A stretch of DNA of 54,755 nucleotides from an uncultured Bacteroidota bacterium (lineage in GTDB: Bacteria; Bacteroidota; Bacteroidia; Chitinophagales; Chitinophagaceae): the NCBI GenBank assembly GCA_903829015.1, contig CAIKOJ010000025.1:1-54755 (forward strand). Reading direction: 5' to 3'. The notes below the pieces were generated by a model. The model was not told where the DNA came from, searched no databases, and was given only the letters and a program-made list of their open reading frames with translations. Positions 25,943 through 50,956 of this stretch are shown here, one piece after another. The position numbers and the translations under genes are program-made. Within the stretch, counting starts at the first letter, position 1. Each line of letters opens with the position of its first letter.

Positions 25943-26034
25943 CAAAGGTGAAACGTAAAACTGAAAGTAACAATTTTAAGAAACGTGATGGGCCGTATAC
26001 GACTTATGACAGGCTCCACACGACCTGTGACAGA
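25943..26034 (-). promoter_or_regulatory. Cluster A promoter with 21-bp-spaced palindromic operators
   Basis: Minus-strand -7 box CACCTTTG (25943-25950) and -33 TTGT (25970-25973) have a 19-bp spacer. Upstream are 11-bp palindrome-like sites: CTTATGACAGG (26003-26013), CCTGTGACAGA (26024-26034) and a degenerate one, AACGTGATGGG (25982-25992). Their offsets from the -7 box start are 39, 60 and 81 bp, identical to those of cluster B. The placement upstream of -33 and the two-turn spacing fit an activator that binds as stacked dimers on one DNA face. Confidence 0.85.
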
Positions 26035-26174
26035 AAAAATGTGCCAGTGCGGCAAGCGATCAGAAGCTGATTCTGTTTGTCATATACATGCACGATTTTG
26101 CCTTATAGCAAAGTGCCTGTATCAGAAGTGACAGCAATGAATGAACATGGAGTTGTGATCGAAATTTTTAATGT

Positions 26175-26702
26175 CTATTTCGCATTCGGGTCAAACTCCA
26201 ACACTGCAGAGTTCATACAAAATCTTTGAAAAGTAGGAGCCGGACCATCATCAAAAATATGACCGAGATGGGAGTCGCACCGGCCACACATTACTTCTGT
26301 GCGGTGCATACCATGCGAAGTATCTTCTTCGTAACGCACACTGGTAGGGCGGATAGATTCGAAGAAACTGGGCCATCCGCAACCACTCGAAAATTTAGCA
26401 CCAGACTTAAATAAAGCGTTTCCACATACTGCACAATAATAAGTACCTGTATCATCTGTATCCCAGTACTTGCCGGTGAATGCACGCTCTGTTCCCTTCT
26501 CACGTGCTATACGGTAAACCTCTGACGGTAGGATTTTTTTCCATTCTTCATTGGTTACCTGCAGGTGTGTGGTATCGGTATGCGAGTAATGTGGATTGTG
26601 ATTATTATCAGGCATGGTGCTTTTATTTGGAGTATTAGCGCACTGCAAAAATAACGCAGTGCATGAAATAACTAAGGCAATATATATCTTGTGTGCAGAC
26701 AT
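26175..26702 (-). CDS. msrB: Peptide methionine-R-sulfoxide reductase, lipoprotein form
   Basis: 175 aa. The lipoprotein signal is MSAHKIYIALVISCTALFLQC with the lipobox Cys at 21, followed by a linker and an MsrB domain (about 45-172). Zinc-binding pairs are CAVCGN and CGRCDSHLGH, the substrate loop is SGCGWPSFF, and the catalytic Cys lies in RFCMNSAVL. It reduces methionine-R-sulfoxide in proteins and here is exported, so it repairs envelope proteins. It is divergent from the downstream GNAT gene and lies just upstream of cluster A's promoter on the same strand, with about 275 bp containing those operators between. Confidence 0.94.
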   Translation of the reverse strand: MSAHKIYIALVISCTALFLQCANTPNKSTMPDNNHNPHYSHTDTTHLQVTNEEWKKILPSEVYRIAREKGTERAFTGKYWDTDDTGTYYCAVCGNALFKSGAKFSSGCGWPSFFESIRPTSVRYEEDTSHGMHRTEVMCGRCDSHLGHIFDDGPAPTFQRFCMNSAVLEFDPNAK

Positions 26703-26827
26703 CTAATGCAATTTACGGTATTTAGAAAGACTGGAATAAAAGAATGGTACGGTGCAGTTCGATTTAATAGATTATTAACTATTACTTTTGGTGCCTCAAA
26801 TCCGGTTCTAAAAAAGCTAAGAATAAC

Positions 26828-27349
26828 ATGCACCTAACCATAACAACAGCAACCATTCAGGATGTTGAAATCTTATCTGAGTTGAGTGTAGTAACCTTTA
26901 CTGAAGCTTTTGCGGCAGACAATAAGAAAGAGGACATGGATCAATACCTTGCCGAGGAAATGAGCGTAACGAAACTGCGAAGTGAATTACTGGATAAGAA
27001 CAACCTGTTTTTACTTGCTTGGTACAACGATGAACCTGTGGGCTATGCAAAGATGGGCATGGGCAACAAACAGGAATCTGATGCACTGGAGCATCCTATT
27101 GAACTGGAGCGTATATACATTCTGAAAAAACACTACGGCAAAAAAGCCGGTGCTGCATTAATGGAATCATGCCTGCAGTATGGTAAACACAACGGGTATA
27201 AAACTATATGGCTTGGGGTGTGGGAGCTAAACCACAGGGCAGTAAACTTCTACAAGCAATGGGGCTTTGAATTGTTTGGCTCACACGGATTCAAACTGGG
27301 TAATGATATGCAAACAGATGTATTGATGAAGAAAAGCCTTATAGTATAA
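26828..27349 (+). CDS. GNAT-family N-acetyltransferase
   Basis: 173 aa. Acetyl-CoA-dependent acyltransferase fold: N-terminal ITTATIQDVEILSELSVVTF, the beta4 strand with ELERIYILKKHYGKKAGAAL (motif A pyrophosphate loop, a Y-G-K-K-A-G variant of Q/RxxGxG/A), and motif B HNGYKTIWLGVWELNHRAVN followed by FYKQWGFELFGSH. It resembles the spermidine/amino-acid acetyltransferase branch, but the substrate is not identifiable. It ends at 27349 directly against the stop of the convergent 27350 gene. Confidence 0.88.
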   Translation: MHLTITTATIQDVEILSELSVVTFTEAFAADNKKEDMDQYLAEEMSVTKLRSELLDKNNLFLLAWYNDEPVGYAKMGMGNKQESDALEHPIELERIYILKKHYGKKAGAALMESCLQYGKHNGYKTIWLGVWELNHRAVNFYKQWGFELFGSHGFKLGNDMQTDVLMKKSLIV

Positions 27350-27673
27350 TCAGTTAGCCGTTTTGGCCGCTTTCTTTTGATTTTTCGCCTCCAGCGCATC
27401 CTGCCTGATCTCCTGCCTGATTTCTTTCCTTTTTTTATACGCCGCATATTCCTCAGGCGTCATTTCTTCAAGCTGACGTTTACGGCGGAGCTCGGCAAGC
27501 GTCTGCTCCATAATGCGGTTTTCTTCTTCTACAGTGCGGAAACCATTGGCTCCCCAAATAAGCTGGCCATAATAGTGGGCTATATATTGGTCGTTGTGGT
27601 TGCTGTAATTAGAGTATACATTCTGTGCGAACGTGGCAGAACAGCACAACAAAAAAACAGTGCAAAAAAACAA
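27350..27673 (-). CDS. Small secreted Glu/Arg-rich protein, signal peptide frameshifted
   Basis: The readable frame (107 aa) begins at TTG 27673 with FFCTVFLLCCSATFAQ and lacks any positive N-region, with an in-frame TAA directly before the TTG. A normal ATG lies at 27686 in another frame. Deleting one T from the run of seven T on the minus strand (about 27667-27673) would fuse them into MKKIIVFCTVFLLCCSATFAQ, a perfect Sec signal peptide. The mature part is helical and charged (EEENRIMEQTLAELRRKRQ...EEYAAYKKRKEIRQEIRQD). Either the copy is off by homopolymer slippage or the sequence has an error. Function unknown. Confidence 0.6.
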   Translation of the reverse strand: MFFCTVFLLCCSATFAQNVYSNYSNHNDQYIAHYYGQLIWGANGFRTVEEENRIMEQTLAELRRKRQLEEMTPEEYAAYKKRKEIRQEIRQDALEAKNQKKAAKTAN

Positions 27674-27850
27674 TTATTTTTTTCATATAAATGTATTAAG
27701 GGGTGTAAAATAAACGAAAAAGGCTCAGAACGGGGGTTAATGAGTAGTTAAGTGTTGTGCACAAGGCCGCCGTAACGTGTGATACACGGCAAAAATCACC
27801 AGTACAAATCGGTTGGAATGTGAGGTTTGGTACAGAAAAATCTAAAGAAA

Positions 27851-29134
27851 TTAAATAACTACTACCTCGTAAAAGTCCTTTCTATCGAAATATTTTTGGG
27901 CGAGGGTTTTGAGCTCAGAAGCCGTTATGGTTTTATAAATGCGAATATTATTATAGAAATAATCTTCGGTAAAGCCATTTAAAATGAGCGTGCGCCAGCG
28001 TGCTAAAATCGAGAAAGGACCATCAAGATCGCCCAGCAATCCGCCGAGCAGATAATTCTTTACCAGCAATAACTCCTCATCATCTGCAGCTTCGTTGCAA
28101 AGGATGTCCATTTCTTTGTACACTTCTTTGATCGCATTCTCGATAACATCCCGTCCGGTTTCAGTATGAATAACCAATGAGCCGCCGTTAATATCGGGAG
28201 TAATACCACTGTAGATACCGTAGGTGTAGCCTTTGTCCTCTCTGATGTTTGTCATCAGTCTAGATCCGAAATAGCCACCGAATAGCGTGTTGAGCACGAT
28301 CATGGGTGAATAATCCGGGTGATGGCGGTTGGGGAATAGCCTGCCTATACGGATGGCACCCTGCACACCATTGGGGTCATTGTCTACTCTGACAGAACGC
28401 TCGGTGGCACCTGCTACAGAGAACGTAGGTTCAATTATTGAAGCGGCAGATGGTAGTGTTCCACCAAAAATGCTGTTGATCAGTTTTACTTCGCTGTCAC
28501 CCACTTTACCTCCCATAAAAAGGGTAGCGGTGGATAGGTTAAAATGAGACTTATAAAAAGAAACAAGGTCTTTGCGCACGAGTGCCTCAATGTTCGCTTG
28601 TTTAGAGAATCGTCCGTATGGATGAGCCTCGCCATACAGAACTGCATCTATTTTCTGATTGGCTACAAATTCGCATTGGCGCAGATTTACCAGCAGCCTT
28701 TGTATGGCATTGTTCTTATGAATTTCGATTTCGTTTTCAGGAAAGGTTGCATCTGTGATGATCTCATGGACAATGGGGAGCAGCACTGGCAGGTGCTTTG
28801 TAAGTGCATACAAAGTTACAGAGCAGTAGTCGTTGCCGGCATTTACCTTTAACTGGGCACCATAAAATTCAAGCGACTCACTGATCTGTTGGGCAGTATG
28901 TTTTGAAGTGCCGTTTTTCAACAGCGCTGCTGTTGACTGGGCAATCGATGGTTTTTCCTCATACCACAACCCTGCCTTGAACACCCAGTCTATCTGCACA
29001 ACATCCTGCACGCCTGCGTTGAGCCAATATAATGGCAGACCATTGTCAAGCGTTACCTTGTTGACAGGAGGAAGGTTAAATTCAAAATTAACAGCATCAT
29101 GAATGGCGGGCGGTGATGTGCGGTCTAATACCAT
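27851..29134 (-). CDS. M16-family peptidase homologue without the zinc motif
   Basis: 427 aa. Typical M16 layout: N-terminal LDNGLPLYWLNAGVQDVVQI strand, then WVFKAGLWYEEKPSIAQ and a helix where active enzymes have HxxEH. Here that stretch reads AQSTAALLKNGTSKHTA, with no His or Glu pair, so the metal site is absent. The C-terminal half shows the R/Y-type segment GGYFGSRLMTNIREDKGYTYGIYS that positions substrate in the partner subunit. Such inactive halves work with an active M16 partner, like the alpha subunit of mitochondrial processing peptidase. No active partner is adjacent in this window. Confidence 0.88.
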   Translation of the reverse strand: MVLDRTSPPAIHDAVNFEFNLPPVNKVTLDNGLPLYWLNAGVQDVVQIDWVFKAGLWYEEKPSIAQSTAALLKNGTSKHTAQQISESLEFYGAQLKVNAGNDYCSVTLYALTKHLPVLLPIVHEIITDATFPENEIEIHKNNAIQRLLVNLRQCEFVANQKIDAVLYGEAHPYGRFSKQANIEALVRKDLVSFYKSHFNLSTATLFMGGKVGDSEVKLINSIFGGTLPSAASIIEPTFSVAGATERSVRVDNDPNGVQGAIRIGRLFPNRHHPDYSPMIVLNTLFGGYFGSRLMTNIREDKGYTYGIYSGITPDINGGSLVIHTETGRDVIENAIKEVYKEMDILCNEAADDEELLLVKNYLLGGLLGDLDGPFSILARWRTLILNGFTEDYFYNNIRIYKTITASELKTLAQKYFDRKDFYEVVVI

Positions 29135-32385: not shown

Positions 32386-32400
32386 ATATAGCTCTTGATG

Positions 32401-38173: not shown

Positions 38174-38998
38174 CTAGTCTAGCGGAATTATTGTATTGAA
38201 ATTGACAGCGTAAGCTGTTATTGAAATATCCGGTCTTATCCAGTTTATAGAAATCTGACCTATGGTATTCACTCCACAACTAATTTGCTTTATCCAGGAA
38301 ACGCCTAGGTCATCCTGAATAAGGCCACCCAAATAATAGTGCCCCGTAAAATAAGTATTGTTACCTGGCATATACCCCGCAGGCAAAGTGCCCATTAGAT
38401 AAAACAATGCCGCAGGCGATGCCACAAAGTTCTGCGCATTATTTGCTGTTAGCGACCCTCGGATGTGAAGCGTATTGTTAAGGAAATTTTTCTTGTAATA
38501 TATAGTACCCGTAACGCCACCACTGGCAGGCGGCGTAGATACGCTGAGCGACTGCCATCCTGTTTCCCTACCCTTAATACCAAAATGAACCTGAAACGGA
38601 GCCAGATCTGAGAATGGAAATTGAGTTGGTGTAGTGGCCGGTGGTCCAATAACGAGTGTTGCTGCCTTGTCAAGAACAGCAGGAAAGAAACTGCCATCAT
38701 TGTACGTAAGGCCGGTAGACGACGGTGTGATATTTACAAGAACCGTTGTGCCTACAAGAATTGAGGAAAAACTGCCCGAATAAAATCTGATCAGTTCGCC
38801 GTTATAGAAAAACCAACCATCAGAAATGGTCGTAGTGGGGCCCGATACAGATGCTTCCATACCGCTGATGATCGTAGGACCCAGACCACCCATTGCAGCA
38901 AACGCATTAAGGCACTCGGTATAGGCTTGTTGTAAATAGTCCAACTGATCCTGCGTCAACGGGAATCCGCCGGGGTGAGTAAAATCGATAGCTTTCAT
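38174..38998 (-). CDS. Phage-like tail fibre/collar-type protein
   Basis: 274 aa, last gene of cluster B. The N-terminus MKAIDFTHPGGFPLTQDQLD, then LDYLQQAYTECLNAFAAMGG, is the baseplate-attachment head found on short tail fibres of Bacteroidota contractile phages and phage-like particles. A beta-rich middle (about 45-130) and C-terminal receptor-type region (from about 150) with many Gly/Thr/Asn follow. It ends with an ISITAYAVNFNTIIPLD tail without a chaperone domain. The role in target recognition is inferred from position and pattern. Confidence 0.7.
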   Translation of the reverse strand: MKAIDFTHPGGFPLTQDQLDYLQQAYTECLNAFAAMGGLGPTIISGMEASVSGPTTTISDGWFFYNGELIRFYSGSFSSILVGTTVLVNITPSSTGLTYNDGSFFPAVLDKAATLVIGPPATTPTQFPFSDLAPFQVHFGIKGRETGWQSLSVSTPPASGGVTGTIYYKKNFLNNTLHIRGSLTANNAQNFVASPAALFYLMGTLPAGYMPGNNTYFTGHYYLGGLIQDDLGVSWIKQISCGVNTIGQISINWIRPDISITAYAVNFNTIIPLD

Positions 38999-39020
38999 AA
39001 CTGCTGATTATTTTTAGAGA

Positions 39021-39536
39021 TTAATATATTTCTATAGAATAGTTTGACCTGGACGCCAGGCGATAGAGGTCTATGAGCGCTCTTATCCGCACCTCATTAT
39101 ACCCTGTACTTAACGAAACAAGCAGTGGAATGTTTACAATGAAACATACTCCCAGCATATAGGTTTCTGATGAAGTATATAGCACCTGAGGATCGGGATA
39201 GGGCGTAGTACCTGCTTCCGAAGAGAGGCCCACCCATAGTGGCTTCACCTCTGTATCGAGGTACAGAAACAAAGGGTCTTTAAATGAGCCGTCGGTGATG
39301 TATATACCCCTCAACACAGGATCGAACGTGTCATTCAAGGCCGCTTCCATCAAGCATACCTGACCGTTGTGGGCCAACAGATACAGGTTGTTTTTCCTGT
39401 AGGCAACAAACAGCCGATAGAGCCATTTTACCTGGCTGACCAAATATTTCAGCCATGCGTACATTACGGACTGCCGCAGCCGCACAGGCAGCAACTGGTA
39501 TACGAGGCTGTCATAATCAATGTTAAAGAGACCCAT
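39021..39536 (-). CDS. Phage baseplate wedge protein (gpI-like)
   Basis: 171 aa from ATG 39536 (MGLFNIDYDSLVYQLLPVRL); the longer TTG frame is rejected. The opening and the helix VRLRQSVMYAWLKYLVSQVK match the tail protein I/gp48-type wedge proteins of Bacteroidota phage-like clusters. It also has a NGQVCLMEAALNDTFDP patch. In P2/Mu order this protein follows gpJ-like and precedes the fibre, exactly as here. It links the outer baseplate wedge to the fibres. No enzymatic motif. Confidence 0.7.
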   Translation of the reverse strand: MGLFNIDYDSLVYQLLPVRLRQSVMYAWLKYLVSQVKWLYRLFVAYRKNNLYLLAHNGQVCLMEAALNDTFDPVLRGIYITDGSFKDPLFLYLDTEVKPLWVGLSSEAGTTPYPDPQVLYTSSETYMLGVCFIVNIPLLVSLSTGYNEVRIRALIDLYRLASRSNYSIEIY

Positions 39537-39593
39537 AGAGTGTATTGTTAAAAAGGACAAACAATTAAAAGTGCCGGATACAGAATCAAACCG

Positions 39594-40424
39594 TTAGAAC
39601 GGACCGTGGCCGGTATAGGTTACGTATGTATCGAAGTAAAGGGAGTCGAGGATCATATACCCGGCATCAGGCAGGTATTCATAAGTAACAGGCAAGTATG
39701 ATGTAAGTCCGTAATTTGCCTGAGCACTAACTATCTCTGCAATCCTAACGCCTTCTACCTCCTGCAATGCTGCAATAAGGTTATTGATCACAAATAATCC
39801 GTTGAATGGAAGATGCTCGAGAAAAGCATTGATCGCATCCTTTACAGGTGTAGTACTGGTGCCGTCCAATCTGGCGCCGTTAGCATTGAGAATTAATGGA
39901 TCATAAAACACCGCAACTTTCAATTGCAGATTATCCGGGTTGCCACTGGTTACCTGTATCCGTACTCCTGCATCTTTTACCCTGGCCATGTATGCTGCGA
40001 ATGCTGTAAGTTGCAATGGCAGCAGCGGAGCCAATACCCCACCAGATAGCCGGGCAACTTTTATTCTAACCAGGTTTACTAATTCAACAGCGGCCGCATA
40101 CTTTACAATGAGCACATTAGGGTCTACCGGCGGTACTATTTCATATTCATCACTGTCAGGAGGCAAAGAAATTCCGTATTGAAACTTTTTCGCTTTCGAG
40201 ACATACCATTGTAATGAATGTGGCTTCTGCAAAGCAATAAGACTGATTACTTCAGCTTTATGTGCATCAAAAAGATTTTCGAGCGTCCACTGACAAACAG
40301 CAACAATATAGGTCCAAAGCAGCCATATGGCTGTGTTGCTGGTACTCGATAAACCACTTAGAGTTGTGTCGGCAGACTTTGCGGCAAATAGTGCTGCCTG
40401 AATTTGGGATATAGTTCTAGCCAT
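39594..40424 (-). CDS. Phage baseplate J-like protein (gp47/gpJ)
   Basis: 276 aa. It shows the wedge-protein pattern: an N-terminal helix MARTISQIQAALFAAKSADT, a helix IVAVCQWTLENLFDAHKAEV, a central region with VKDAGVRIQVTSGNPDNLQL and KVAVFYDPLILNANG, and the C-terminal beta domain VEGVRIAEIVSAQANYGL. It lies between the gpI-like gene and the LysM-containing gene. Similar proteins in databases are sometimes mislabelled as nucleotidyltransferases; I see no such active site. It is shorter than P2 gpJ. Confidence 0.72.
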   Translation of the reverse strand: MARTISQIQAALFAAKSADTTLSGLSSTSNTAIWLLWTYIVAVCQWTLENLFDAHKAEVISLIALQKPHSLQWYVSKAKKFQYGISLPPDSDEYEIVPPVDPNVLIVKYAAAVELVNLVRIKVARLSGGVLAPLLPLQLTAFAAYMARVKDAGVRIQVTSGNPDNLQLKVAVFYDPLILNANGARLDGTSTTPVKDAINAFLEHLPFNGLFVINNLIAALQEVEGVRIAEIVSAQANYGLTSYLPVTYEYLPDAGYMILDSLYFDTYVTYTGHGPF

Positions 40425-40491
40425 TTGAAACTTTTAAAGAAATTATTATTGGAATGAGACCTTGAGAATGAAACAGCAAAAGGAGTAGTTC

Positions 40492-41442
40492 CTAAGATAT
40501 TTCCACAACCATAGATAAGGCACTGGGAGGATAAGCCGTGCCGGAATTAGTATAAACGGTAGCTACGCCAAAAGTATAAGTGCCACGCGTGAGTACCAAA
40601 ATGGTTTTATCAGCATTGCCCGGATCAAGAGGATCCGGCGTACCGCCTATAGCGTCGTACAACCAACTCATTGAATGGGTTACAAAATCCAACAAACCTA
40701 TAAGGTGATGATTACGTGTGAGCCTGAGAGTAACTGAACTACCGGTGCGCGAAACCACATCTACTGAAAGATCTGCAATCAGGTATTCCACTACGCTTTG
40801 CGCAGTATTGCTTAGTATAATAAGCGGTGCGCAAAATGCCTCATTGCCTTTTGAATCTACGAAAGTGGCTGTTCTGTCAGGAGCGCTCAGGTCACTCCAA
40901 ATCATCATTAATCCTCTGCCAGCCACCCATCCGATCGTATATGGCAATAAACCATCGTCCATGTAATGACCTGAACTGAGGCTGTTTTCGGGAGTCTCGT
41001 GTGCCAGGTACCGTTCTTCAGTAATATGCCACATCAGGTTGTCATTTGCGGGATAATGCAAATGAGGTATCGGATACGTGTTGACAAAGCCCGGTGCAGT
41101 CTGCCAGTCAAATTGATAATCACCGGTAATGTATGGCGGACTAGACGTTGACGGCACTACGGTCATAACGGGCTTCAGAATTATGGAAAAACTTATTTCA
41201 GTCCGGTTATCAAGTGTACCTATAGTAATACCGTTCCTAACGAGGTATTTTACAACATCTTTATCGGTGTTCGTTGAATTTATACTTTCTACTTGAAACT
41301 CTTCATCTGGCACAGGAATGTCACTTATATTTCTGGCGTTTTCTGCCGCGAATTGCATACCTGCCTCGAGTGAACCACAAGCCTGAATAACGATATCCAG
41401 CATACTCTGATTAGGCATCGTTTTTATTGGATTAGACATCAA
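40492..41442 (-). CDS. Phage-like structural protein with N-terminal LysM-like domain
   Basis: 316 aa. Residues about 14-55 (SMLDIVIQACGSLEAGMQFA...AENARNISDIPVPDEEF) resemble a LysM peptidoglycan/tail-hub module as found in baseplate proteins of Bacteroidota phages. The rest is beta-rich with no recognised enzyme. It lies between the gp25-like and J-like genes, so a baseplate wedge or hub-associated role is likely. It could help the tail locate the peptidoglycan layer. No lysozyme or peptidase motif is present. Confidence 0.6.
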   Translation of the reverse strand: MMSNPIKTMPNQSMLDIVIQACGSLEAGMQFAAENARNISDIPVPDEEFQVESINSTNTDKDVVKYLVRNGITIGTLDNRTEISFSIILKPVMTVVPSTSSPPYITGDYQFDWQTAPGFVNTYPIPHLHYPANDNLMWHITEERYLAHETPENSLSSGHYMDDGLLPYTIGWVAGRGLMMIWSDLSAPDRTATFVDSKGNEAFCAPLIILSNTAQSVVEYLIADLSVDVVSRTGSSVTLRLTRNHHLIGLLDFVTHSMSWLYDAIGGTPDPLDPGNADKTILVLTRGTYTFGVATVYTNSGTAYPPSALSMVVEIS

Positions 41443-41473
41443 ATAGATCTTTAGTTGTTTAGCCTTGGTTTTG

Positions 41474-41773
41474 TTATGAATAATATGCGTCGGTGTTTAT
41501 CGTTCCGTTTTTAGAAACGTCAATTCTCTTTACGTCCATGCCGTCTTTCATGAACTCCTGACTGATAGCTCTGATCAGCTCGCGGAAATTTTCATCGTCC
41601 AGATATTCGAATGCGCCAACGCATATCGTAGGATTTTGTTTAAAGTCACCTTTGTTATTCAGGATCAGCAGCCGCTGGTGCTGACCTGTTGATTCAAGGG
41701 CGACAAAGTCTCCGGAATGAACAAGCAGGTCATCATCCGAAGCCAGACTGATGTCAATCATTTGTGTTGCCAT
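41474..41773 (-). CDS. Phage baseplate wedge protein (T4 gp25/gpW-like)
   Basis: 99 aa. The small gp25/gpW fold: IDISLASDDDLLVHSGDFVA, QRLLILNNKGDFKQNPTICV (the conserved turn before the helix), and the C-terminal helix NFRELIRAISQEFMKDGMDV. It initiates sheath assembly on the baseplate. It sits between the spike gene and the LysM-containing gene, in the same order as Mu gp46 after gp45. Confidence 0.8.
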   Translation of the reverse strand: MATQMIDISLASDDDLLVHSGDFVALESTGQHQRLLILNNKGDFKQNPTICVGAFEYLDDENFRELIRAISQEFMKDGMDVKRIDVSKNGTINTDAYYS

Positions 41774-41845
41774 ACTATATCGGTATTTTAAAAATCAAGA
41801 AGAGGTATCGCAATTATTGACTCTGGAAGTGTCATTAGTTGCCAA

Positions 41846-42397
41846 CTAACTGGCAAGTAAATTGTCGAGCCTGGTTATAAGCAAATTGAAGTCTGCAACA
41901 TTTACCGGAACGCTGCTGGCGCCTGTGGATGTAGTTACAGTCAGTGCAGCAATGTATGTAAAGCAGTCTTTTAATAGCTGATACAAACTCTCTGCGGAAG
42001 TGTTCATTTTGAACAGGCTTTCGGAAACATTAAACTCAGTGCTTCCATTTTGAATGCTGACCTGGCTGCTGTCCATTAGATACTTTACATCTTCAATTGT
42101 AATCATCGCTCTTGAAATCCTGCTTGCTTTTAGCAATACCCATTCACCCGGTCCATCAACACATCCAATAACCACATTGCTTCCCTCAGCAGGAATCAAA
42201 AGAAAACCATTCGTGTCTCCGGTTACAGGATTGAGTAGCACATTTTCAATTGGCTCGCCATCGTTATTTGGCAATACACTCATTGTACCTTCGCCAAAAT
42301 TTACACTACCAGACACAACGGTTCCGCTGATAATAACCGGCGGTGTTTCGGTCAATGTTCTAATGCCTTCTTTTATCTTTGCTGAATTCTTCGTCAT
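41846..42397 (-). CDS. Phage baseplate spike protein (gpV/gp45-like)
   Basis: 183 aa from ATG 42397, only 4 bp after the hub gene stop; the longer TTG frame is rejected. N-terminal OB-fold region with VIISGTVVSGSVNFGEGTMS, GFLLIPAEGSNVVIGCVDGP and a C-terminal helix ESLYQLLKDCFTYIAALTV. In contractile tails this trimer forms the membrane-piercing spike under the hub. It lacks an obvious PAAR-like His cluster, so a separate tip protein may cap it. Confidence 0.75.
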   Translation of the reverse strand: MTKNSAKIKEGIRTLTETPPVIISGTVVSGSVNFGEGTMSVLPNNDGEPIENVLLNPVTGDTNGFLLIPAEGSNVVIGCVDGPGEWVLLKASRISRAMITIEDVKYLMDSSQVSIQNGSTEFNVSESLFKMNTSAESLYQLLKDCFTYIAALTVTTSTGASSVPVNVADFNLLITRLDNLLAS

Positions 42398-42401
42398 GTG
42401 T

Positions 42402-43436
42402 TTAGGATTTTGCAAAACCTACTATTGGTCCGATCTCAATAATTCTACGGGCTCCGTCTATACCATAATTAACCTGTGTACCCTCTATAAGATATCGACT
42501 GTTTAGCCTCGGATATCTACTGTCAGTAATGTTTGCCAGATATCCCGGAGCAGCGAATGGCTGCAGAAAGGATGTTATTGTCCCCTCGAACCCTGTGTAA
42601 TTCAACTGATAGGCTTTTTCATTAGCTAGTTGTTTAAGTTGGTCTGAGTCACTGATATGATTCAATACTTTACTTCGGGTGTAGTTGCTTTGACTGTAAA
42701 CGTCAGAGCTTTGTGAGACTTTGGTACCATCGGGCAGCCGCTTAGAGTAAATTACTTTTACGAGATCTACTTCTGGATTACGTTGAGTCAATTGATTTTC
42801 ATCCATTGCATTATAACCCAACCTATAGTCAACAATTCCCAGATTAAAAAAATCGGTGCCTTTTGCCAAAGGAATATACCTGTACCCACACCATAAAGTA
42901 TCTGGTTGAATAAAAAATAATGACAAGGCGTTGTCGGTGTATTTCGAGATATTTTCAATCAAATCGAAACCACACATATTGTCAACGGTCAGATTGCGCA
43001 GAGTTATATCTAAATCACACTGAACGTTTATTTTGTATCCTGCATACAAATCAGATACAGCCTTTTCCAGAAGCTCTTTTAAAGCTATTGTTTGCCAAAA
43101 CCCGGAGATATTGTTCCTCCTGATGAGCCAGCTATAGCCTTCGCACTCAATCTCCAGGGGCATGTTCAAATTGCGGCTCTTTACAAAACCGGTAAATTCA
43201 GTTTTCAGCTCGTTGTTGTATCCGAGCTGAATGGTTACCGGATTTCCCTCTTTGAATTGATTGCCGGTAACTACCAAGTCTGGGCTTGCCTTATCTTTTA
43301 CAGTAATTTTAGAAATGGAAGGTATTTTTATGATCGCAGCACTTACTATGCTATAGACACTGCTTTGAATCTGAATGTCGTGTACACCACTGAACCGGAA
43401 ATTGCCAATGGATATATCGCTTGTAAGTATAAACAT
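42402..43436 (-). CDS. Phage baseplate hub protein (gpD/gp27-like)
   Basis: 344 aa. Hub features: two beta-barrel parts with FTGFVKSRNLNMPLEIECEG, WLIRRNNISGFWQTIALKEL, and a C-terminal PGYLANITDSRYPRLNSRYL. Its ATG overlaps the stop of the upstream gene (TAATG, 1 nt), so it is translationally coupled. Forms the trimeric adaptor between tail tube and spike. Assignment from position (just upstream of the spike gene) and from the late-control-D-like pattern. Confidence 0.78.
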   Translation of the reverse strand: MFILTSDISIGNFRFSGVHDIQIQSSVYSIVSAAIIKIPSISKITVKDKASPDLVVTGNQFKEGNPVTIQLGYNNELKTEFTGFVKSRNLNMPLEIECEGYSWLIRRNNISGFWQTIALKELLEKAVSDLYAGYKINVQCDLDITLRNLTVDNMCGFDLIENISKYTDNALSLFFIQPDTLWCGYRYIPLAKGTDFFNLGIVDYRLGYNAMDENQLTQRNPEVDLVKVIYSKRLPDGTKVSQSSDVYSQSNYTRSKVLNHISDSDQLKQLANEKAYQLNYTGFEGTITSFLQPFAAPGYLANITDSRYPRLNSRYLIEGTQVNYGIDGARRIIEIGPIVGFAKS

Positions 43437-44089
43437 TATGAAATAGATATTAGGTTAAACGGTTCATCGCTTACCAGATGTAGTTCATATGGCGCAACAT
43501 TCTTTACTCCGGTCACGGCCGGAAATTTCAACTCTGTTATGACCACCTGGTCACTCCCGCTTCTATCAGGGCGCAAAAGAAAAATGTCAGTCAACGGACA
43601 TTGAATGGCAAGTGGTTCATTTTGCTCATAAATATTGCGCAGAATGGTTACCTCATTTTCCGGGAAGTTATTCCCTTCGCCTATTATGAAACCTTTGATA
43701 GTTATTTCATAATTCCGAATGTTGATCAATTCCTTAACTGTACCTCTTCGTTCGGTAAGTGGAGTTTCGACAATCGTTTTACTGCTGGATACCGAAATAA
43801 CTGGAAATGGCAGATCCCATTTTTTAAGTTTACCGGTTTCGATTGCACCTTTTGTTGTTTGCTTGCTGGTCAGTGACGATATACCTTCAGGGTAGGATAT
43901 CGTAACTGGCATATAATACTCTAAGCCAAGGGAACCGATTGTATAATATGGTGAACCCTGTGCTCCATATTCTTTCCGGTTGGTGTTGACTGCTCCTTCG
44001 GTCTTTGAAAAATCAGGATCGAACGCTCTGGTCTTATACCCGAATGTCTGCTCAAACAAATCTGAAATGTTAAATGATAATTCAGCCAT
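43436..44089 (-). CDS. Phage baseplate/tail-hub-associated protein (DUF6046-like)
   Basis: 217 aa from ATG 44089 (MAELSFNISDLFEQTFGYKT). It has the SSLTSKQTTKGAIETGKLKK and NIRNYEITIKGFIIGEGNNF segments typical of a Bacteroidota phage protein that sits between tape measure and hub (family name from memory). The C-terminus has the AVTGVKNVAPYELHLVSDEP strand pair. It is the likely functional counterpart of Mu gp43/P-type or T4 gp53/LysM hub adaptors. The start lies 2 nt after the upstream stop, and the stop overlaps the hub start. Confidence 0.65.
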   Translation of the reverse strand: MAELSFNISDLFEQTFGYKTRAFDPDFSKTEGAVNTNRKEYGAQGSPYYTIGSLGLEYYMPVTISYPEGISSLTSKQTTKGAIETGKLKKWDLPFPVISVSSSKTIVETPLTERRGTVKELINIRNYEITIKGFIIGEGNNFPENEVTILRNIYEQNEPLAIQCPLTDIFLLRPDRSGSDQVVITELKFPAVTGVKNVAPYELHLVSDEPFNLISIS

Positions 44090-44091
44090 AA

Positions 44092-45492
44092 TCAACGTGT
44101 TGCATTTGCACTGTTAAGAATTTCTAGCAATACCTCTTCTACTTTGCGTCTAAATTCCGCAATTCCGCTCCCGGCGTCTTTCGATGTGATTGAAAAATTT
44201 TCGATCAGAGGTCTATTCATGTGTATGTGAACCGAGCGCTGTTGTGATTGAAATGCATGGGTCGATTGACGTCCAGGATGAAACGGGTTAAAAGCTCTGG
44301 TGGCAGCTGTGGTGTTAAAAAGTCCAGGAACAAAAGTATTTCTTTCCGCAGCCAGCATCGAAAGCGTTTGAGGTGCCATTTCAAACAATCCCTTCATACC
44401 AAACACCTGAAGCCAACTATCTATCCTCTTCTCCTGTCCACTGTAGAGGGTACCTTGAGAGTTGTTTCTAGCCTGCAATCTGGTGTTGGCAACAATTCCC
44501 TGCAATCCATAAATAGAATTAAGGTTGCTGAGAAAATCCAGCATACGCAACCTTGAATTCATTGCGCTCGAATAGGCGCCAGCACTCTTAAATCCCCCAA
44601 CAGCATTTTTTAAAGATCCAACTCCGGTGTTGCGTTCTATAGCTTTTTCCGGAACATTCCGCCTAATTGTACCAACCTGCGCATTCATTAATTTAGCACT
44701 TCCACTCCAATCTCTTTTCTGATTGCTGATTGGCGATGATCCTTTAAGAAGTTTGTTAATTGCTTCAACTGCGACCACTTTAAAGAACTGTCGCGTTCCA
44801 TTGTTTGGCAAATAAGCATCTGAAATTTTCGGGCTGTTGTTTGGAACACCAGGTAGTAGTTGTTCAAATCCCATTTTCACTCTCCGGCGATTTATGTGTA
44901 TTTCTGAAGCCTCGCTATTATGTAGTTCAAAATTGCAACTTTTCACCAGGTCCGCCAATACAGGTGTTATATTCGTACCCATCTTGTCGCTTTGAGGAAT
45001 CCGTCGGTCCCTGTCATTGAACAAGCTCAGGGTAACTTCCGGCAGTTGCATTTGTTGATTTGGCTTTGTTCCTGGCAAGGCAACCGAATAGCGATTCGCA
45101 TTTCTGATTGTAGATATAATATCTCTTTTTTGCACAAGCTGTGTGATCTCTTGTTTGTCTATCGCATTAAATGAATGGTTGCCAAGTGTGAGTTTTCTGA
45201 GATTGTCACGTTGGTAAAAGTCTGCGGTAGCCAGCCCCTGCGGTTTCTTTCTGCTATTCGCGAAATTGTCATTGTAGGTCAAAGACCCTGTCGAATTGCG
45301 TTTCCGACCGAAGGGTCTGGCTATGCCCACTTGAGTGGTCACTTCTGGATAGGCACGTAACCCTTTGCCAAAATCAGCCATACCTCTCTTTTCGCCGAAC
45401 AAACCATTTTCCTTCTTTACGGAAAACTGGTATGCATGCAAACTGGATTTTCTCAAAATCCTATCGGTGTACTCCTTGTAGTGAAGGGGCAT
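44092..45492 (-). CDS. Putative short tape measure protein
   Basis: 466 aa in the place of the tail-length protein, after tube and tail-chaperone genes. It is rich in Asn, Arg, Ser and Gln, contains little hydrophobic helix, and ends with a VHIHMNRPLIENFSITSKDA segment and EFRRKVEEVLLEILNSANATR helix, as in C-termini of tape measures. No lytic transglycosylase or peptidase domain. With the usual about 0.15 nm per residue the tail would be about 70 nm. It is much shorter than most myophage tape measures, and the 190 bp before it hold no ORF, so an N-terminal loss is possible. Confidence 0.6.
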   Translation of the reverse strand: MPLHYKEYTDRILRKSSLHAYQFSVKKENGLFGEKRGMADFGKGLRAYPEVTTQVGIARPFGRKRNSTGSLTYNDNFANSRKKPQGLATADFYQRDNLRKLTLGNHSFNAIDKQEITQLVQKRDIISTIRNANRYSVALPGTKPNQQMQLPEVTLSLFNDRDRRIPQSDKMGTNITPVLADLVKSCNFELHNSEASEIHINRRRVKMGFEQLLPGVPNNSPKISDAYLPNNGTRQFFKVVAVEAINKLLKGSSPISNQKRDWSGSAKLMNAQVGTIRRNVPEKAIERNTGVGSLKNAVGGFKSAGAYSSAMNSRLRMLDFLSNLNSIYGLQGIVANTRLQARNNSQGTLYSGQEKRIDSWLQVFGMKGLFEMAPQTLSMLAAERNTFVPGLFNTTAATRAFNPFHPGRQSTHAFQSQQRSVHIHMNRPLIENFSITSKDAGSGIAEFRRKVEEVLLEILNSANATR

Positions 45493-46236: not shown

Positions 46237-46668
46237 CTATTCAGTTACGAGTTTCAAAAACACTATTGGCAGTGTTACATCCATATTTTTGGCTACTTGC
46301 TCCCACCCTTTTTCAAAATCCTTTATTTCCACATTTACAAGGGTATCTGTCTGCAGCGGACGTGTGCCTTTCGGTTTATACGTTACAATGATATCAAACT
46401 GCATATCAAGAATGTCTTCACCTCCTGCCGCTATTGCCGCCCTGTTCATATCATCGATCGCTCCTTTTAAAACTTTGATCTGACCCTCATAAGTGCGGTT
46501 TCCGCTCTGTATACTTATAGGTTCATCGCCTGCGGCATGTAGCAGCTGCTTATCTTTAGCTGCTTTGTATTTTATTCCACGAATTTTTGTGAGCGGCGAT
46601 CCGGCAAACAATACGGTCATGTCTGCCCACTCGCAATCCTTACTATCAAAAAATGGTACTGATGGCAT
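46237..46668 (-). CDS. Phage tail tube protein
   Basis: 143 aa, just downstream of the sheath gene. The beta-rich tube fold shows WADMTVLFAGSPLTKIRGIK, the hairpin SGNRTYEGQIKVLKGAIDD, and QFDIIVTYKPKGTRPLQTDT. The C-terminal strand is EQVAKNMDVTLPIVFLKLV. It stacks as hexamers to form the inner tube inside the contractile sheath. Its place after the sheath matches Mu gp40. Confidence 0.8.
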   Translation of the reverse strand: MPSVPFFDSKDCEWADMTVLFAGSPLTKIRGIKYKAAKDKQLLHAAGDEPISIQSGNRTYEGQIKVLKGAIDDMNRAAIAAGGEDILDMQFDIIVTYKPKGTRPLQTDTLVNVEIKDFEKGWEQVAKNMDVTLPIVFLKLVTE

Positions 46669-46751: not shown

Positions 46752-47933
46752 TTAGAGAGATGGGTTCTCAAATCCCAAGGTAATTTCTATGTCCGTGGCA
46801 TACCCTACCGGCGTTATTTTTAATACTACATGCAGCTCGTTTGTGCTGAGTATATTTTGCGCCGGATCTATAAAACAGTTTATGGCACTGATTTCCTTAT
46901 TTGCTGTCATGGTAGTATTTACCTGATTTACTATTTGCTGGCTGAGCCATTTGCAGAAACCCGCATCTAGTGTTCCATCGTCATTCACAGGCACTTCGTC
47001 GTCTACTTCCTGAACGAAGGTTGTATATGCCAGAATATGCGCCTTATCCATTACCCTACCTCTTGCGAGCATGCTGTAGTCGTCGGTCGTTGCGGTAAGC
47101 ATCGGATCTCCGCTGAAGAAATATCCGCTCACGTTGGGGTACGTTATGAACGTAATAAAACCTTTACCCGATATTATCGCCGCATCACCGGTGGCACTTT
47201 CAAGCGGAGTAGTGTGCAGATATGCTGCTGTATTTGTTAAAGGTCCTGTCCGTACTCTGCTTATTTTTCTCTGTACCGGTATTGACGAGATAACGCCCAG
47301 CAGTAATCCCATGCTCGCGGCTTTACCGCTTACGGTGTCCCCAATTAATATAGCACACCTGTTGTTGCTGGTACCTGCGGTTTCGTCGGTAAGGCTGGCC
47401 GGAGTTCCCGAATAAGATGTACCACCAATTACACACCTGAAGGGTTTTTCTGCCAGAAAATAAGCCTGCGCCATGATGCGCATATTGCTTGCAGCTGTGT
47501 ATACATCTGCGTTCAGTCCATTAGTTACGGTGATCGAACCACCCCCTGCCGTTATGGCATCATCATCGCTGAGTAGTCCCAGTACTTTTATCTTTCCTCC
47601 CGCAAACTCCAACAGTTTTTTCGCACCATTAGGATTTGAGTTGTCTGCCATTTGTGCTACGGTCATAGTAGTTGGCACCAGCATCAAATACAATTGCGAT
47701 CCTGTTCCTGCCTGGTTGTAGAATTCCTGCAGTTGCTTTATGGCAAACGGATTGTTTGTGTTAGTAATTCCCGCCACGGCTACGTCCGACATACTTGTCA
47801 CTAATATCGGTGAGCCGGCAGTATATCCACCAGATTCCGATACACCCGTTAGTACAAGTCCGGTAATTCCGTCATTCGTCTGGAGCGCGGCTCCCAGCTG
47901 GCCATTGGCCAGAGTTATATTTACACTACCCAT
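46752..47933 (-). CDS. Contractile tail sheath protein (DUF2586-like)
   Basis: 393 aa. N-terminal MGSVNITLANGQLGAALQTN, central VLGLLSDDDAITAGGGSITV, RKISRVRTGPLTNTAAYLHT, and the conserved C-terminal domain with YTTFVQEVDDEVPVNDDGTL and LHVVLKITPVGYATDIEITL. This is the sheath type used in Bacteroidota phage-like particles. Its presence proves a contractile (myo-type) tail. It is intact, and is followed by the tube gene after 84 bp. Confidence 0.87.
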   Translation of the reverse strand: MGSVNITLANGQLGAALQTNDGITGLVLTGVSESGGYTAGSPILVTSMSDVAVAGITNTNNPFAIKQLQEFYNQAGTGSQLYLMLVPTTMTVAQMADNSNPNGAKKLLEFAGGKIKVLGLLSDDDAITAGGGSITVTNGLNADVYTAASNMRIMAQAYFLAEKPFRCVIGGTSYSGTPASLTDETAGTSNNRCAILIGDTVSGKAASMGLLLGVISSIPVQRKISRVRTGPLTNTAAYLHTTPLESATGDAAIISGKGFITFITYPNVSGYFFSGDPMLTATTDDYSMLARGRVMDKAHILAYTTFVQEVDDEVPVNDDGTLDAGFCKWLSQQIVNQVNTTMTANKEISAINCFIDPAQNILSTNELHVVLKITPVGYATDIEITLGFENPSL

Positions 47934-47975
47934 ATGTTTATCGTTTCCTTGTTAGTTTTATGTTTTGCATGTTTG

Positions 47976-48200: not shown

Positions 48201-48297
48201 TTTTATTAGTTAATTTTTAACAGAGTGTATATCACTGATAGCGTTTAAAGGGGCCGGCCTGGAATCCTGCATGTCGATATTTAATATTGATTGATTC

Positions 48298-48579
48298 TTA
48301 GGACCATCGCAGGTTGTTTTGGTTGCCGTTGATCTCCAACGATCTTATCCGGTCTGAATGCTCATTGAGGCGGCTGTGTATCACTGTATCCTGTTCCTGC
48401 AACCCCTTTATCTGCTGTCCCTGTATGGTTGTAGCCTGCGTAAGTTGTTTCAACTCAGATACTATTTCATCGAGCCTTTTTATTACTTCTACAGTCACCA
48501 ACTTGATCATATAACCCAGAACAGTCGCCATAACACCAGCCACCCCAACGAGTACCCAAATTTTTATTTCAGAAAGCAT
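48298..48579 (-). CDS. Membrane-anchored coiled-coil protein in the phage-like cluster
   Basis: 93 aa. An N-terminal membrane segment (IWVLVGVAGVMATVLGYMIK) is followed by a long amphipathic coiled coil (VEVIKRLDEIVSELKQLTQA ... GLQEQDTVIHSRLNEHSDRI). It is reminiscent of XhlA- or holin-accessory-like proteins, but with the membrane anchor at the N-terminus. It is the only envelope-directed gene in either cluster apart from the 120-aa host-like one, so it is the one candidate for particle release. No endolysin gene accompanies it. Confidence 0.6.
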   Translation of the reverse strand: MLSEIKIWVLVGVAGVMATVLGYMIKLVTVEVIKRLDEIVSELKQLTQATTIQGQQIKGLQEQDTVIHSRLNEHSDRIRSLEINGNQNNLRWS

Positions 48580-48617
48580 GTTCTTTCATTTTTTCGCTTT
48601 ACTGCATTTGCCGGTTG

Positions 48618-49532
48618 TTATGCGGCATCCTGCACAATGGCTACTATTCCTTTTGCGTCACTTCTGCGTATCCTGCCACCAATGCGCACGCTCACACTGT
48701 ATACGTCGCCATAGTAAGTTGGGTCGCCTGTACGCTCAAAGAATGTGATCTGACCCAGGGCCCTTTCAACAGCATTTATCTGCCAGCAGAGTACACCGTC
48801 ATTGTCAGTTGCAGATGATGCAACTCCGTAAGGGTTTACTACTGGTGCTGTATCGTTGTTGTAGCTCAGTACGCCGCTGCGCATCATTATGTTAAACCCA
48901 AACAACCTACCCAGTATACCGTCCTTAACATCGTAGGCCGCACTGAAATCACGGTATTGCGTCGCAGACATATCATCGGTAAGTTGCTGAAACATATCAG
49001 CGCTCAGCAGCGCATACCTTCCTTCCATCGGCACATTTTGTTTGTTCAGCTGCAGTTGTGCGTTCTTCAGGTCAGTTACAGTAAATTTCTTACGGTTACC
49101 TGTTGTGCCGGCCAGTGTGCTTGCAGTTGTGGCGCCGGTTGTGCGGATGGTTGTACCGGTAGTTCCGGTTGGTGCCCAATCAATCAGTATGTTGTCTGAA
49201 ACCGTCTGGCGAAGTGACGCTTCATATTCCGCAAGCACGCTTTCCCTCTTATTGTAACTGAGTTCATAAGTCTCTGCGTTTGGAATCAGGATCGGATCGG
49301 TCGTATACTCATCAAGCGTGTAGGTTATATCCGAGTCTCTCCGTGTTGCAACGGTTGCCGGCAGGTCAGAGCGGTTTTTCTCTATCGTGGGCAGCGCACC
49401 CGCTTGTGGTATGTGTACTACCTGTCCCTGCAGCACATATTGTCCTGCATCAGTTGATGCCAGTAAGAACTCGTTGTTCTTGAATAGATTGCCCTCAATG
49501 TGATCTTGCCAGATCTCTTTTTGAATTGCCAT
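48618..49532 (-). CDS. Phage major capsid protein
   Basis: 304 aa, HK97-fold type by pattern: N-terminal arm MAIQKEIWQDHIEGNLFKNN, EFLLASTDAGQYVLQGQVVH, the spine helix YELSYNKRESVLAEYEASLR, and the P-domain strand ending RIGGRIRRSDAKGIVAIVQD. It lies downstream of a protease-scaffold gene, as in many tailed phages. It is intact. It has a Thr/Gly-rich loop of TGTTGTTIRTTGATTASTLA type near residue 125. A 301-bp gap with an inverted repeat separates it from the protease gene. Confidence 0.85.
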   Translation of the reverse strand: MAIQKEIWQDHIEGNLFKNNEFLLASTDAGQYVLQGQVVHIPQAGALPTIEKNRSDLPATVATRRDSDITYTLDEYTTDPILIPNAETYELSYNKRESVLAEYEASLRQTVSDNILIDWAPTGTTGTTIRTTGATTASTLAGTTGNRKKFTVTDLKNAQLQLNKQNVPMEGRYALLSADMFQQLTDDMSATQYRDFSAAYDVKDGILGRLFGFNIMMRSGVLSYNNDTAPVVNPYGVASSATDNDGVLCWQINAVERALGQITFFERTGDPTYYGDVYSVSVRIGGRIRRSDAKGIVAIVQDAA

Positions 49533-49833
49533 ATTGAATTATTGGTTTTGGTTAAAGAATTTTGATTGTATACAAAAGAGGTTAAGAATGGAATGCATCC
49601 GCTGTACCTGCCGGGCGGAAGGCGTTGAAATGGAGTTGTTTTGAAGAATACCTCTCCGAGAATCGCTGTGTTTATTTCAAAGTTGGTAACTGCTGTGGCG
49701 CAGGCCGGAAGTAAATAGATTAGAGGGGAAGTGATAGGTAACCAGCCAGGCCACAGCAGTGCTCACTACTCACGTATGAGTAACGTATATTGAATGTGGT
49801 AAGTAAATAAAAACCCTGTTTTCGTTTTAGCAG
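49533..49833. other. 301-bp gap between protease/scaffold and capsid genes
   Basis: No ORF. It holds the perfect 11-bp inverted repeat ACTGCTGTGGC (49689-49699) / GCCACAGCAGT (49750-49760) with a 50-nt spacer. It may be an mRNA structure controlling the protein ratio or a processing site; no good promoter box was seen. Confidence 0.45.
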
Positions 49834-50838
49834 TTAGGCCGCAACAGGTTGGAATTTGTTGTCAAACAGTTCTTTGTATTTTACAGGGTTGTTGGCTCTG
49901 AGCTCTTTCAGTTTTTTACCCGACGGGTCATTTTTCTCAAAATCATCCCACTGCCATTGTGCTTCTGTGGTATCCAGCGGTTTGCTGCTCAAGTGTTCGG
50001 CAATAGAACGGTAGGCCGGCATAACCGCTAGTAGTGTTTTCAATCCCTCAGGATTCGCAGCATAATCCACGGCAAGTTGGTTTCTGAGCGACACGGTCAA
50101 TTTTTTGTCTTCCAGCGCGCGGTCCAGCGTTGCCGTGATCTCAAATTTGTTCTGTGCCTGGGTCAGGTCATCCAATTGTAGCTGCAGATTGTGTTTTTCG
50201 TTGCGCAGCGTTTTATTTTCCAGTTCCAGCACGCCCGTTTTTGCAGCCAGGTTTTTAATCTCCGTTACTATTGCCTGCTCATCGGCTGCACTATCCAGTA
50301 GCAGTATACCGGCCAGTTCGTTGATTGTATTCTGGCCTATCGTAGTTATCAGGTTCTTGTTGTTTATTCCCAGATCTACCAGATTCAATTCATTTTCCTG
50401 TGCATCATATAATCTGGTGAGTGCATTGCAGTTACCGGGTATATCCACCAGGCTGCATTCTTTGTTATACCATTTTGTGATGGTGGGCCCTGTTTGCCCG
50501 GGCAGCATCTGAGCCGGATCGGTACTGTATTCCAGCACCACAATATGCCCAACCGAAGCTGCGTTCAGAAAACCATTTTCCGCCTCATCACAGGTTTGTG
50601 CGCCGCGCCCGTTCGATAGATTGATGACTGGTGTTCCCAATACTTTGTCATCCTCGATCCGCACATTTTCCCACTTCAGCACTATTCCCTCTTCTCTGCG
50701 GTGCATGTAGTAACCTATTGGGTTCTTCTGAAAAGAAGCTAACTGGTATCCTGATGTCAGTAAGCGAAAACCATATTCATTTACCGAGCTGTCCGAGAGC
50801 ACATACTCCCGCTCTATTTTCCTGTATTTGTCTGTCAT
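49834..50838 (-). CDS. Prohead protease-scaffold fusion protein
   Basis: 334 aa, first gene of cluster B. N-terminal (1-150) prohead protease of the U9/S78 type, with the candidate catalytic His46 in IGYYMHRREEG, Ser95 in NAASVGHIV, and an acidic patch between. A coiled-coil scaffold region follows (about 182-232, GVLELENKTLRNEKHNLQLQ), then a C-terminal delta-like domain. The protease digests the scaffold as the head matures. It starts at ATG 50838, 27 nt after the -7 box of the shared cluster promoter, and carries the leader shared with cluster A. Its intact active residues argue against decay. Confidence 0.85.
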   Translation of the reverse strand: MTDKYRKIEREYVLSDSSVNEYGFRLLTSGYQLASFQKNPIGYYMHRREEGIVLKWENVRIEDDKVLGTPVINLSNGRGAQTCDEAENGFLNAASVGHIVVLEYSTDPAQMLPGQTGPTITKWYNKECSLVDIPGNCNALTRLYDAQENELNLVDLGINNKNLITTIGQNTINELAGILLLDSAADEQAIVTEIKNLAAKTGVLELENKTLRNEKHNLQLQLDDLTQAQNKFEITATLDRALEDKKLTVSLRNQLAVDYAANPEGLKTLLAVMPAYRSIAEHLSSKPLDTTEAQWQWDDFEKNDPSGKKLKELRANNPVKYKELFDNKFQPVAA

Positions 50839-50856
50839 GATAGGGATTTATTTGTT
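50839..50856 (-). promoter_or_regulatory. Conserved 5' leader next to the cluster B start codon
   Basis: On the minus strand the bases before the ATG are AACAAATAAATCCCTATC, the same as in cluster A with one T/A insertion. Confidence 0.7.
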
Positions 50857-50864
50857 TTGCAGGA

Positions 50865-50956
50865 CAAAGGTGAAGCCTAAATTTTACATAGACAAATCGC
50901 TTATCTGTGACAGGCTCCCTGTGTCCCGTCATAGGTCGTATCCGTCCTGTCATAGA
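50865..50956 (-). promoter_or_regulatory. Cluster B promoter with three 21-bp-spaced palindromic operators
   Basis: Minus-strand -7 box CACCTTTG (50865-50872) and -33 TTGT (50892-50895). The three 11-bp palindrome-like sites are TCTGTGACAGG (50904-50914), CCCGTCATAGG (50925-50935) and CCTGTCATAGA (50946-50956). Their spacing is 21 and 21 bp, with offsets 39, 60 and 81 bp from the -7 box start, identical to cluster A. Consensus CCTGTSACAGG. The transcriptional direction is towards the protease gene. Confidence 0.9.

Follow-up and report, generated by a model that had tools for sequence, protein, structure and literature searches.

Gene transfer agents (GTAs) are among the closest described systems to the locus considered here. 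In the accounts cited, a dedicated activator acts on the main gene cluster and on distant loci, GafY having 18 sites in addition to those at gafYZ and at the GTA promoter (PMC11150451, PMC9632790). A GafYZ motif could not be predicted in one of these studies (PMC9632790), and a GTA activator element has been mapped by promoter dissection (PMC11150451). Here we describe a promoter module on contig C25 (CAIKOJ010000025.1), whose 54,755 nucleotides, referred to as the window, belong to a 3.99 Mb genome in 225 contigs. The genome is assigned to Flavipsychrobacter (Chitinophagaceae), a genus name that rests on matches to relatives; those matched by name were Flavipsychrobacter, Taibaiella, Chitinophagaceae metagenome-assembled genomes and the strain F. 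stenotrophus RB1R16 (L118). The module stands ahead of two phage-like clusters, A, which begins with a small terminase gene (TerS), and B, which begins with a Mu-like protease/scaffold gene. It is common to A, B and many other sites, at which a single activator may act, as in a GTA-type regulon that takes in the cluster and accessory loci. We put at roughly 65% the reading that this is a shared phage-derived module driven by an activator, which was split from a bidirectional array in a domesticated GTA-like element and has spread genome-wide.

Both promoters lie on the minus strand. Their parts are given below with matches to R1, an array profile built from sequence alone that has promoters A and B among its building sequences (E, expectation value).

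25943..25950, minus strand: -7 box CACCTTTG of promoter A
25970..25973, minus strand: -33 TTGT of promoter A
25982..26034, minus strand: array A, with sites at 25982-25992, 26003-26013 and 26024-26034; R1 match 25943-26042, E 1.5e-11 (A being among the building sequences)
25881..25895, minus strand: leader ATAAATCCCTATCAC ahead of the TerS ATG
50865..50872, minus strand: -7 box CACCTTTG of promoter B
50892..50895, minus strand: -33 TTGT of promoter B
50904..50956, minus strand: array B, with sites at 50904-50914, 50925-50935 and 50946-50956; R1 match 50865-50968, E 7.5e-16 (B being among the building sequences)
50839..50851, minus strand: leader ATAAATCCCTATC ahead of the protease ATG

Bacteroidota sigma-A promoters have a TTG near -33. 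Set against this and against the -7 consensus TAnnTTTG, both window promoters have TTGT 19 bp upstream of CACCTTTG, the first base of which is C. That consensus, and the extent of the Flavobacterium -7 box from -12 to -5 which is our reference for numbering, are as given in PMC9723704. Counted from a -7 box set at -12 to -5, the centres of the array sites fall near -49, -70 and -91. From the promoter-proximal to the distal site, mismatches to CCTGTSACAGG number 5, 2 and 1 in A and 1, 2 and 2 in B. When triples of CCTGTSACAGG-like sites with at most 9 mismatches in total were sought, the window gave two, at 25982 and 50904, compared with none in any of 100 dinucleotide shuffles; TTGT-N19-CACCTTTG likewise occurs twice, against a shuffle mean of 0.04. 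A sequence-only reading of the window had proposed that an identical promoter precedes both clusters and had found no third copy. Its coordinates, offsets and -33 TTGT were confirmed on the minus strand, the matching leader ATAAATCCCTATC does adjoin both ATGs, and the triple scan finds no third copy in the window.

Under the proposed mechanism, both promoters would carry a module derived from a phage. Its three half-palindromic sites, with two helical turns from one to the next, would lie upstream of a promoter of the Bacteroidota sigma-A-like kind (-33 TTG, -7 nACCTTTG). An activator that binds DNA would fill the array as adjoining dimers and recruit RNA polymerase to the two operons. The ancestral phage would have had a single array, placed between divergent operons for packaging and for capsid/tail, that fired both ways. 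In Flavipsychrobacter the phage would have been domesticated into a GTA-like element and the operons separated, each with a mirror-image copy of the array, after which the module would have dispersed to 33, 25 and 21 places in the three genomes for which a count was made and, in relatives, also to the promoters of TerS paralogues.

Conservation of the module was followed in 34 same-genus genomes (G numbers; L numbers denote loci) and 25 genomes of other genera. Where a promoter could be read, most genomes have the module at TerS and protease. When lined up by their -7 boxes, which are nACCTTTG-like, the A and B promoters have in common an A/T-rich stretch, three TATGAYA-type sites and, some 23 bp ahead of the box, a TTTG. 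Array geometry was counted in 57 scored arrays from the promoters of TerS and protease (B, n=33; A, n=24), with single-array elements (L026, L132, L135, L156), repeated identical sequences and arrays scoring below 19 left out and plus-strand matches of named loci assigned to class B; kinship was not corrected for in the geometry, covariation or 7-mer permutation tests. The offset from array to box is fixed in all 57. Spacings in B are (21,22) in 16 arrays, (21,21) in nine, (22,22) in seven, (23,22) in one and (22,21) in none; in A they are (22,21) in 19, (21,21) in four and (21,22) in one, a mirrored pattern with a Fisher probability of 2.3e-9, kinship uncorrected. The 21-bp spacing of the sequence-only reading thus holds for the window arrays but loosens in relatives to 21 or 22 bp and once 23.

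The spacers themselves read as palindromes that covary between species. Proximal spacer arms are complementary at 2.33 of 5 positions against 1.57 when permuted, and distal arms at 2.74 of 5 against 1.69, and none of 5000 permutations attained as much in either case. Within a genome, moreover, A and B have spacer 7-mers in common (0.192, against 0.043 across genomes; 1 of 20000 permutations; 11 genomes). Because the module is kept at both promoters at a fixed offset, and because the A and B arrays within a genome have spacer sequence in common, the two clusters are very probably controlled by one trans-acting factor. The earlier proposal of one factor serving both is therefore largely supported, except that the module is not limited to the two clusters.

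Several lines of evidence bear on how the two arrays arose. Array A reads mostly as the mirror image of array B, and in related elements a single array lies between TerS and protease (L132/L026, and L156 from a Flavobacterium element). On both sides of the L132 array, at equal offset, stand the box-like TTTG sequences TTTCTTTG and GACCTTTG, and AATCTTTG and CATTTTTG stand likewise around that of L156; a -33 TTG is absent from these two-sided boxes of L132 and L156. In L135 the sole TTTG box faces TerS. A generic triple-palindrome test of 23 TerS-protease gaps was significant (0 of 100 shuffles) in L125, L128, L135, L138 and L155 and borderline in L132 (4 of 100); the other 17 gaps were not significant, among them L156, which rests on the positional scan and the boxes. 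No significant triple palindrome was found in the tested Bacteroidales gaps. L125 and L138 (Tannerellaceae) have triple palindromes of quite different core sequence, three GTTGTAACSGTTACAAC-type palindromes at 21 bp spacing lying between TerS and protease at about 5760-5830 of L138. Since A mirrors B, the palindromic spacers covary and the divergent operons of related prophage-like elements have a single array between them, the simplest reading is that both arrays probably descend from one bidirectional switch that was doubled when the operons separated.

The module is not confined to the two clusters. In this genome a site scan of the fetched loci gives 33 arrays, 31 of them beyond A and B, and the profile at E up to 0.01 gives 25 distinct places in G032 and 21 in G002. 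At E up to 1, counting both strands, same-genus genomes have from 4 to at least 65 profile matches each; of the 25 genomes outside the genus, 24 have a best E between 0.001 and 0.8 and the remaining one gives no match. The dispersed unit is about 105 bp long with TTTTGCC at the -33 place, and its conservation stops on both sides. About eight copies other than A and B stand beside matching flanks in G032, mostly on the evidence of one flank and with diverged adjoining DNA; neighbouring sequence being kept there, turnover is not total. A repeated stretch, AAGCCCCTTTAGG, often running on as GGTTTGGGGTTT, follows the dispersed arrays L247, L248, L251, L253 and L259. A plain exact motif pattern found nothing in the window's own genome, being too strict. 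The idea that the module is private to the two clusters was dropped when the profile search found the further copies.

Some arrays lie directly ahead of genes resembling TerS. The best 150 arrays were matched to TerS-like genes within 700 bp: 41 stand ahead of A or B, at least 27 ahead of a TerS-like gene on the right strand, and none on the wrong side of a gene. The TerS-like proteins (up to 14 matches listed per genome) have an N-terminal helix-turn-helix (HTH) and variable tails, and both of those tested matched phrog_4151. An enlarged TerS-like family with variable low-complexity tails, some members behind an array, is seen in G002, G007, G013, G016, G028 and others (L305, L306, L300). In this genome one TerS-like gene, on contig C72, has an array directly upstream; in others a lone array precedes an AAA_25 ATPase (L343, and L357 judging by its start) or an HNH protein (L342). 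Taken together the scattered set looks like one system under common control, and the module may also act at the dispersed sites. The genome-wide search that had been expected to reveal a full regulon thus yielded 31 further copies, with TerS paralogues behind some of them in relatives, although most copies here have no obvious gene. Wide occurrence before housekeeping genes had been named as a result that would speak against joint control; the motif is indeed widespread, yet its copies are not ordinary housekeeping-gene promoters. That every copy drives a gene was also considered and dropped, most dispersed copies having no sizeable same-strand open reading frame (ORF) starting close behind them. 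The 31 copies (on contigs of this genome, loci L203-L215 and L245-L264) were compared with same-strand ORFs of at least 100 amino acids (aa) starting within 500 bp of the array, and the 25 without one could be decoys, small-RNA promoters or remnants. A broader proposal has the regulator of a GTA-like particle, taken over from the phage, also switching on the dispersed TerS paralogues with their variable tails, which would be alternative packaging adaptors or minimal terS-only satellites steering the packaged region, with gene-less copies as threshold decoys and specificity shifting fast in all arrays of a genome together; we consider it rather unlikely.

The remaining genes of the two clusters were assigned as follows.

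25440..25880, minus strand: TerS, small terminase (PF10668, 3.4e-5; phrog_4151 'DNA binding protein', 3.8e-21)
23806..25374, minus strand: TerL, large terminase (phrog_38, 4.4e-69)
23041..23736, minus strand: putative secreted protein, by look, between TerL and gp36 and retained in several relatives
22400..22834, minus strand: gp36-like connector (PF07030; phrog_195 head-tail adaptor)
21801..22163, plus strand: small membrane protein, by look, nested in cluster A and retained in several relatives
20590..21711, minus strand: portal (PF06074, 3.4e-63)
20038..20544, minus strand: phrog_6911 protein, last of cluster A
49834..50838, minus strand: Mu-like protease/scaffold (phrog_11321, unknown function, 1.8e-59; phrog_328 head maturation protease, 0.0015; PF10123 below cut-off)
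48618..49532, minus strand: major capsid (phrog_267, 2.8e-32)
48298..48579, minus strand: 93-aa membrane/coiled-coil protein by look, presumably holin-like
46752..47933, minus strand: putative contractile sheath (DUF2586, 5.2e-51), a role we assume for this family
46237..46668, minus strand: tail tube by position (best PHROG phrog_9206, major head protein, 3.4e-22; second phrog_4579, tail protein, 1.3e-8)
42402..44095, minus strand: baseplate hub genes (phrog_4930, phrog_5233/DUF6046)
38174..42415, minus strand: rest of cluster B, without a functional family match, its end adjoining mreD

By these family matches cluster A is packaging, connector and portal, and cluster B is protease, capsid and contractile tail, which replaces the division into head and tail clusters of the sequence-only reading. 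Upstream of the start of cluster B, on the opposite strand, lies clpX. No gene for a transposase, an integrase or self-replication was recognised in the scan, which covered the cluster proteins and not the remainder of the genome. Roles in lysis or release are possible for the proteins at 21801-22163 (plus strand) and 23041-23736 (minus strand). Elsewhere in the window, 3871-12411 (minus strand) encodes a 2846-aa protein with calcineurin-like phosphoesterase, Ig-like and Por_Secre_tail sorting domains.

A gene convergent with the end of cluster A supplies the candidate regulator.

19639..19947, plus strand: candidate regulator, 102 aa (phrog_17154, unknown function, E 6.5e-11), predicted all-helical and HTH-like

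Its AlphaFold2 model is all helical (mean pLDDT 86.5, pTM 0.70), and no Pfam family matched the protein. Homologues occur in 29 of 34 same-genus genomes (in G027 as a distant copy only) and in none of the 25 others, G033 being among those that lack it. In some genomes, such as G010 and G029, tens of kb or a contig boundary separate the gene from both clusters, whereas in the compact clusters L125, L135, L153, L155 and L156 homologues stand beside the portal end. Its predicted fold is DNA-binding-like and it co-occurs with the element, which makes it the best regulator candidate; that it is in fact the activator we hold as a tentative view, at somewhat less than even odds. The loci around it gave no array at a score of 18.5 or more. 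A different motif, TATCCAC, which we take to be DnaA-box-like, was sought on either strand in the 110 bp upstream of the candidate regulator genes and is present at 7 of 29 (the background for such a stretch is 0.04). In 13 of 24 A arrays (L033, L035, L047, L052 and L057, for example) and 3 of 30 B arrays (L114, L118, L119) it also precedes the distal site by exactly 19 bp, and it was not seen at the window's own A promoter.

The capsid is found in 27 of 34 same-genus genomes and none of the 25 of other genera, the sole match in G023 and G027 being a prophage-like copy (68 and 54% identity). TerL is found in 30 of 34, with one marginal match outside the genus (E 8e-4), and the portal in 31 of 34 and 0 of 25, in G033 through weak matches alone. 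Misses include G014, G025 and G030, each at most 65% complete, and G033, which is 95% complete, has neither capsid, TerL nor the 102-aa candidate, and gives a best array match of E 0.022. As in the window, mreD adjoins the tail end in L099, L101, L108, L121 and L129, and clpX precedes the protease in L091, L103 and L108; host neighbours differ in the other loci. In L092, L094, L098, L100, L112, L119 and L137 some 2.5-5.7 kb separate A from B, the two being divergent, and the stretches that were read (L092, L094) hold host genes; in the window the distance is 25 kb. Against the closest relative, portal and TerL have ratios of nonsynonymous to synonymous substitution (dN/dS) of about 0.03 and 0.05, comparable to 0.06 for msrB. 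Phage structural and packaging genes thus appear retained as a chromosomal locus by vertical descent, and the conserved host neighbours in several relatives together with purifying selection on cluster A suggest a domesticated, GTA-like element. GTA function, which takes particles that carry random host DNA and transfer genes, would be plausible for it.

A number of observations weigh against this account of a dispersed, activator-driven module in a domesticated element. The A promoters of G021 and G034 (L053, L054) fall below the scan threshold. At the -7 place 26 of the 31 dispersed copies read TTTA (two read TTTG and three neither), only six have a same-strand ORF of the required size (two run into a contig end), and 82 of the best 150 arrays, 29 of them in G008, have no assigned gene. 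Foldseek gives weak matches to the 102-aa model (best E 0.56), although the upper ones are often DNA-binding folds. In distant elements array and candidate do not always coincide: L153 has the candidate and no significant array, and L138 and L128 have the significant triple palindrome in genomes in which no 102-aa homologue was found. Because its synonymous sites are mostly saturated, dN/dS could not be measured for cluster B. Finally, the capsid is absent in G001, G008 and G032 and broken in G031, and TerL has a stop in G005 and G006, so that either the element decays or the assemblies are incomplete.

Other explanations have to be weighed against this evidence. The small terminase family might itself read the array, in autoregulation or as a pac-like start of packaging, in place of the 102-aa protein: TerS and its paralogues are HTH-like and often right behind an array, and L138 and L128 pair a triple palindrome with TerS where the candidate was not found. 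The exact distance from array to promoter is, however, kept on both the TerS and protease sides, which packaging does not need, and Bacteroidales relatives have TerS yet show no significant array in the TerS-protease gap, making this explanation unlikely in our view. Rows of palindromic sites are also usual for operators, so the array could be bound by a repressor that silences both operons; all three sites are upstream of the -33 element, though, with none overlapping the promoter, and sites upstream of a promoter are in the usual location for an activator. We regard repression as distinctly unlikely.

The element might instead be an ordinary prophage, split or mis-assembled and not domesticated. 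Related compact copies with divergent operons (L130, L135, L155, L156) fit this, as do 14 loci with candidate regulator homologues in a scan of viral contigs, but its genus-wide and mostly single-copy occurrence, the host genes between A and B, the low dN/dS of cluster A and the shared host neighbours (mreD after the tail in five fetched loci, clpX before the protease in three) leave that distinctly unlikely as well. A dispersed repeat or mobile promoter module that landed by chance at both clusters would explain the 31 further copies, more in relatives, and the 25 without a same-strand ORF of 100 aa starting within 500 bp. It would not explain why the module sits, mirror-imaged, at TerS and protease in most readable genomes, why related prophage-like elements have a single array, or why some eight copies keep their neighbouring sequence in G032, and we find it very unlikely.

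If correct, the reading of a domesticated element under a shared, activator-driven module would give a GTA-like system in Bacteroidota with a readable regulatory code. Among the papers listed in literature searches, judged by titles and the starts of abstracts, there was no report of a GTA-like system or domesticated prophage in this phylum. Because sequence is enough to recognise the array, its targets can be catalogued genome by genome, and a cultured strain, F. stenotrophus RB1R16, exists. The proposed history would show a route from one bidirectional phage switch to two promoters and then to a genome-wide set, and would connect a domesticated phage with expansion of small-terminase genes.

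Sites of LytTR response regulators are 9-bp direct repeats 21 bp apart. The present array resembles them in its two-turn spacing upstream of a promoter and differs in that its sites are palindromic and three in number. Mu-like portal/contractile Bacteroidota phages (PF06074, PF10758) have in common with it the portal, gp36, sheath and protease families; unlike them, the element has TerS/TerL packaging and lacks a recognised transposase or integrase among the cluster proteins scanned. Phage-inducible chromosomal islands combine an integrase, replication functions of their own and their own TerS. As in those islands, as far as the sources cited describe them, extra small-terminase genes lie outside the phage, here behind the array (PMC6739421, PMC6092414); unlike the islands, these are single TerS-like genes with low-complexity tails, as read in short flanks in which island genes were not looked for. 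There is also a likeness to the Caulobacter and Rhodobacter GTAs with GafYZ and GafA, which are domesticated chromosomal phage genes (PMC11150451, PMC9632790, PMC6363796). The present element, whose particles are putative, differs from them in belonging to another phylum, in having sheath-type tail genes and two clusters, and in its triple-palindrome array that can be read directly from sequence.

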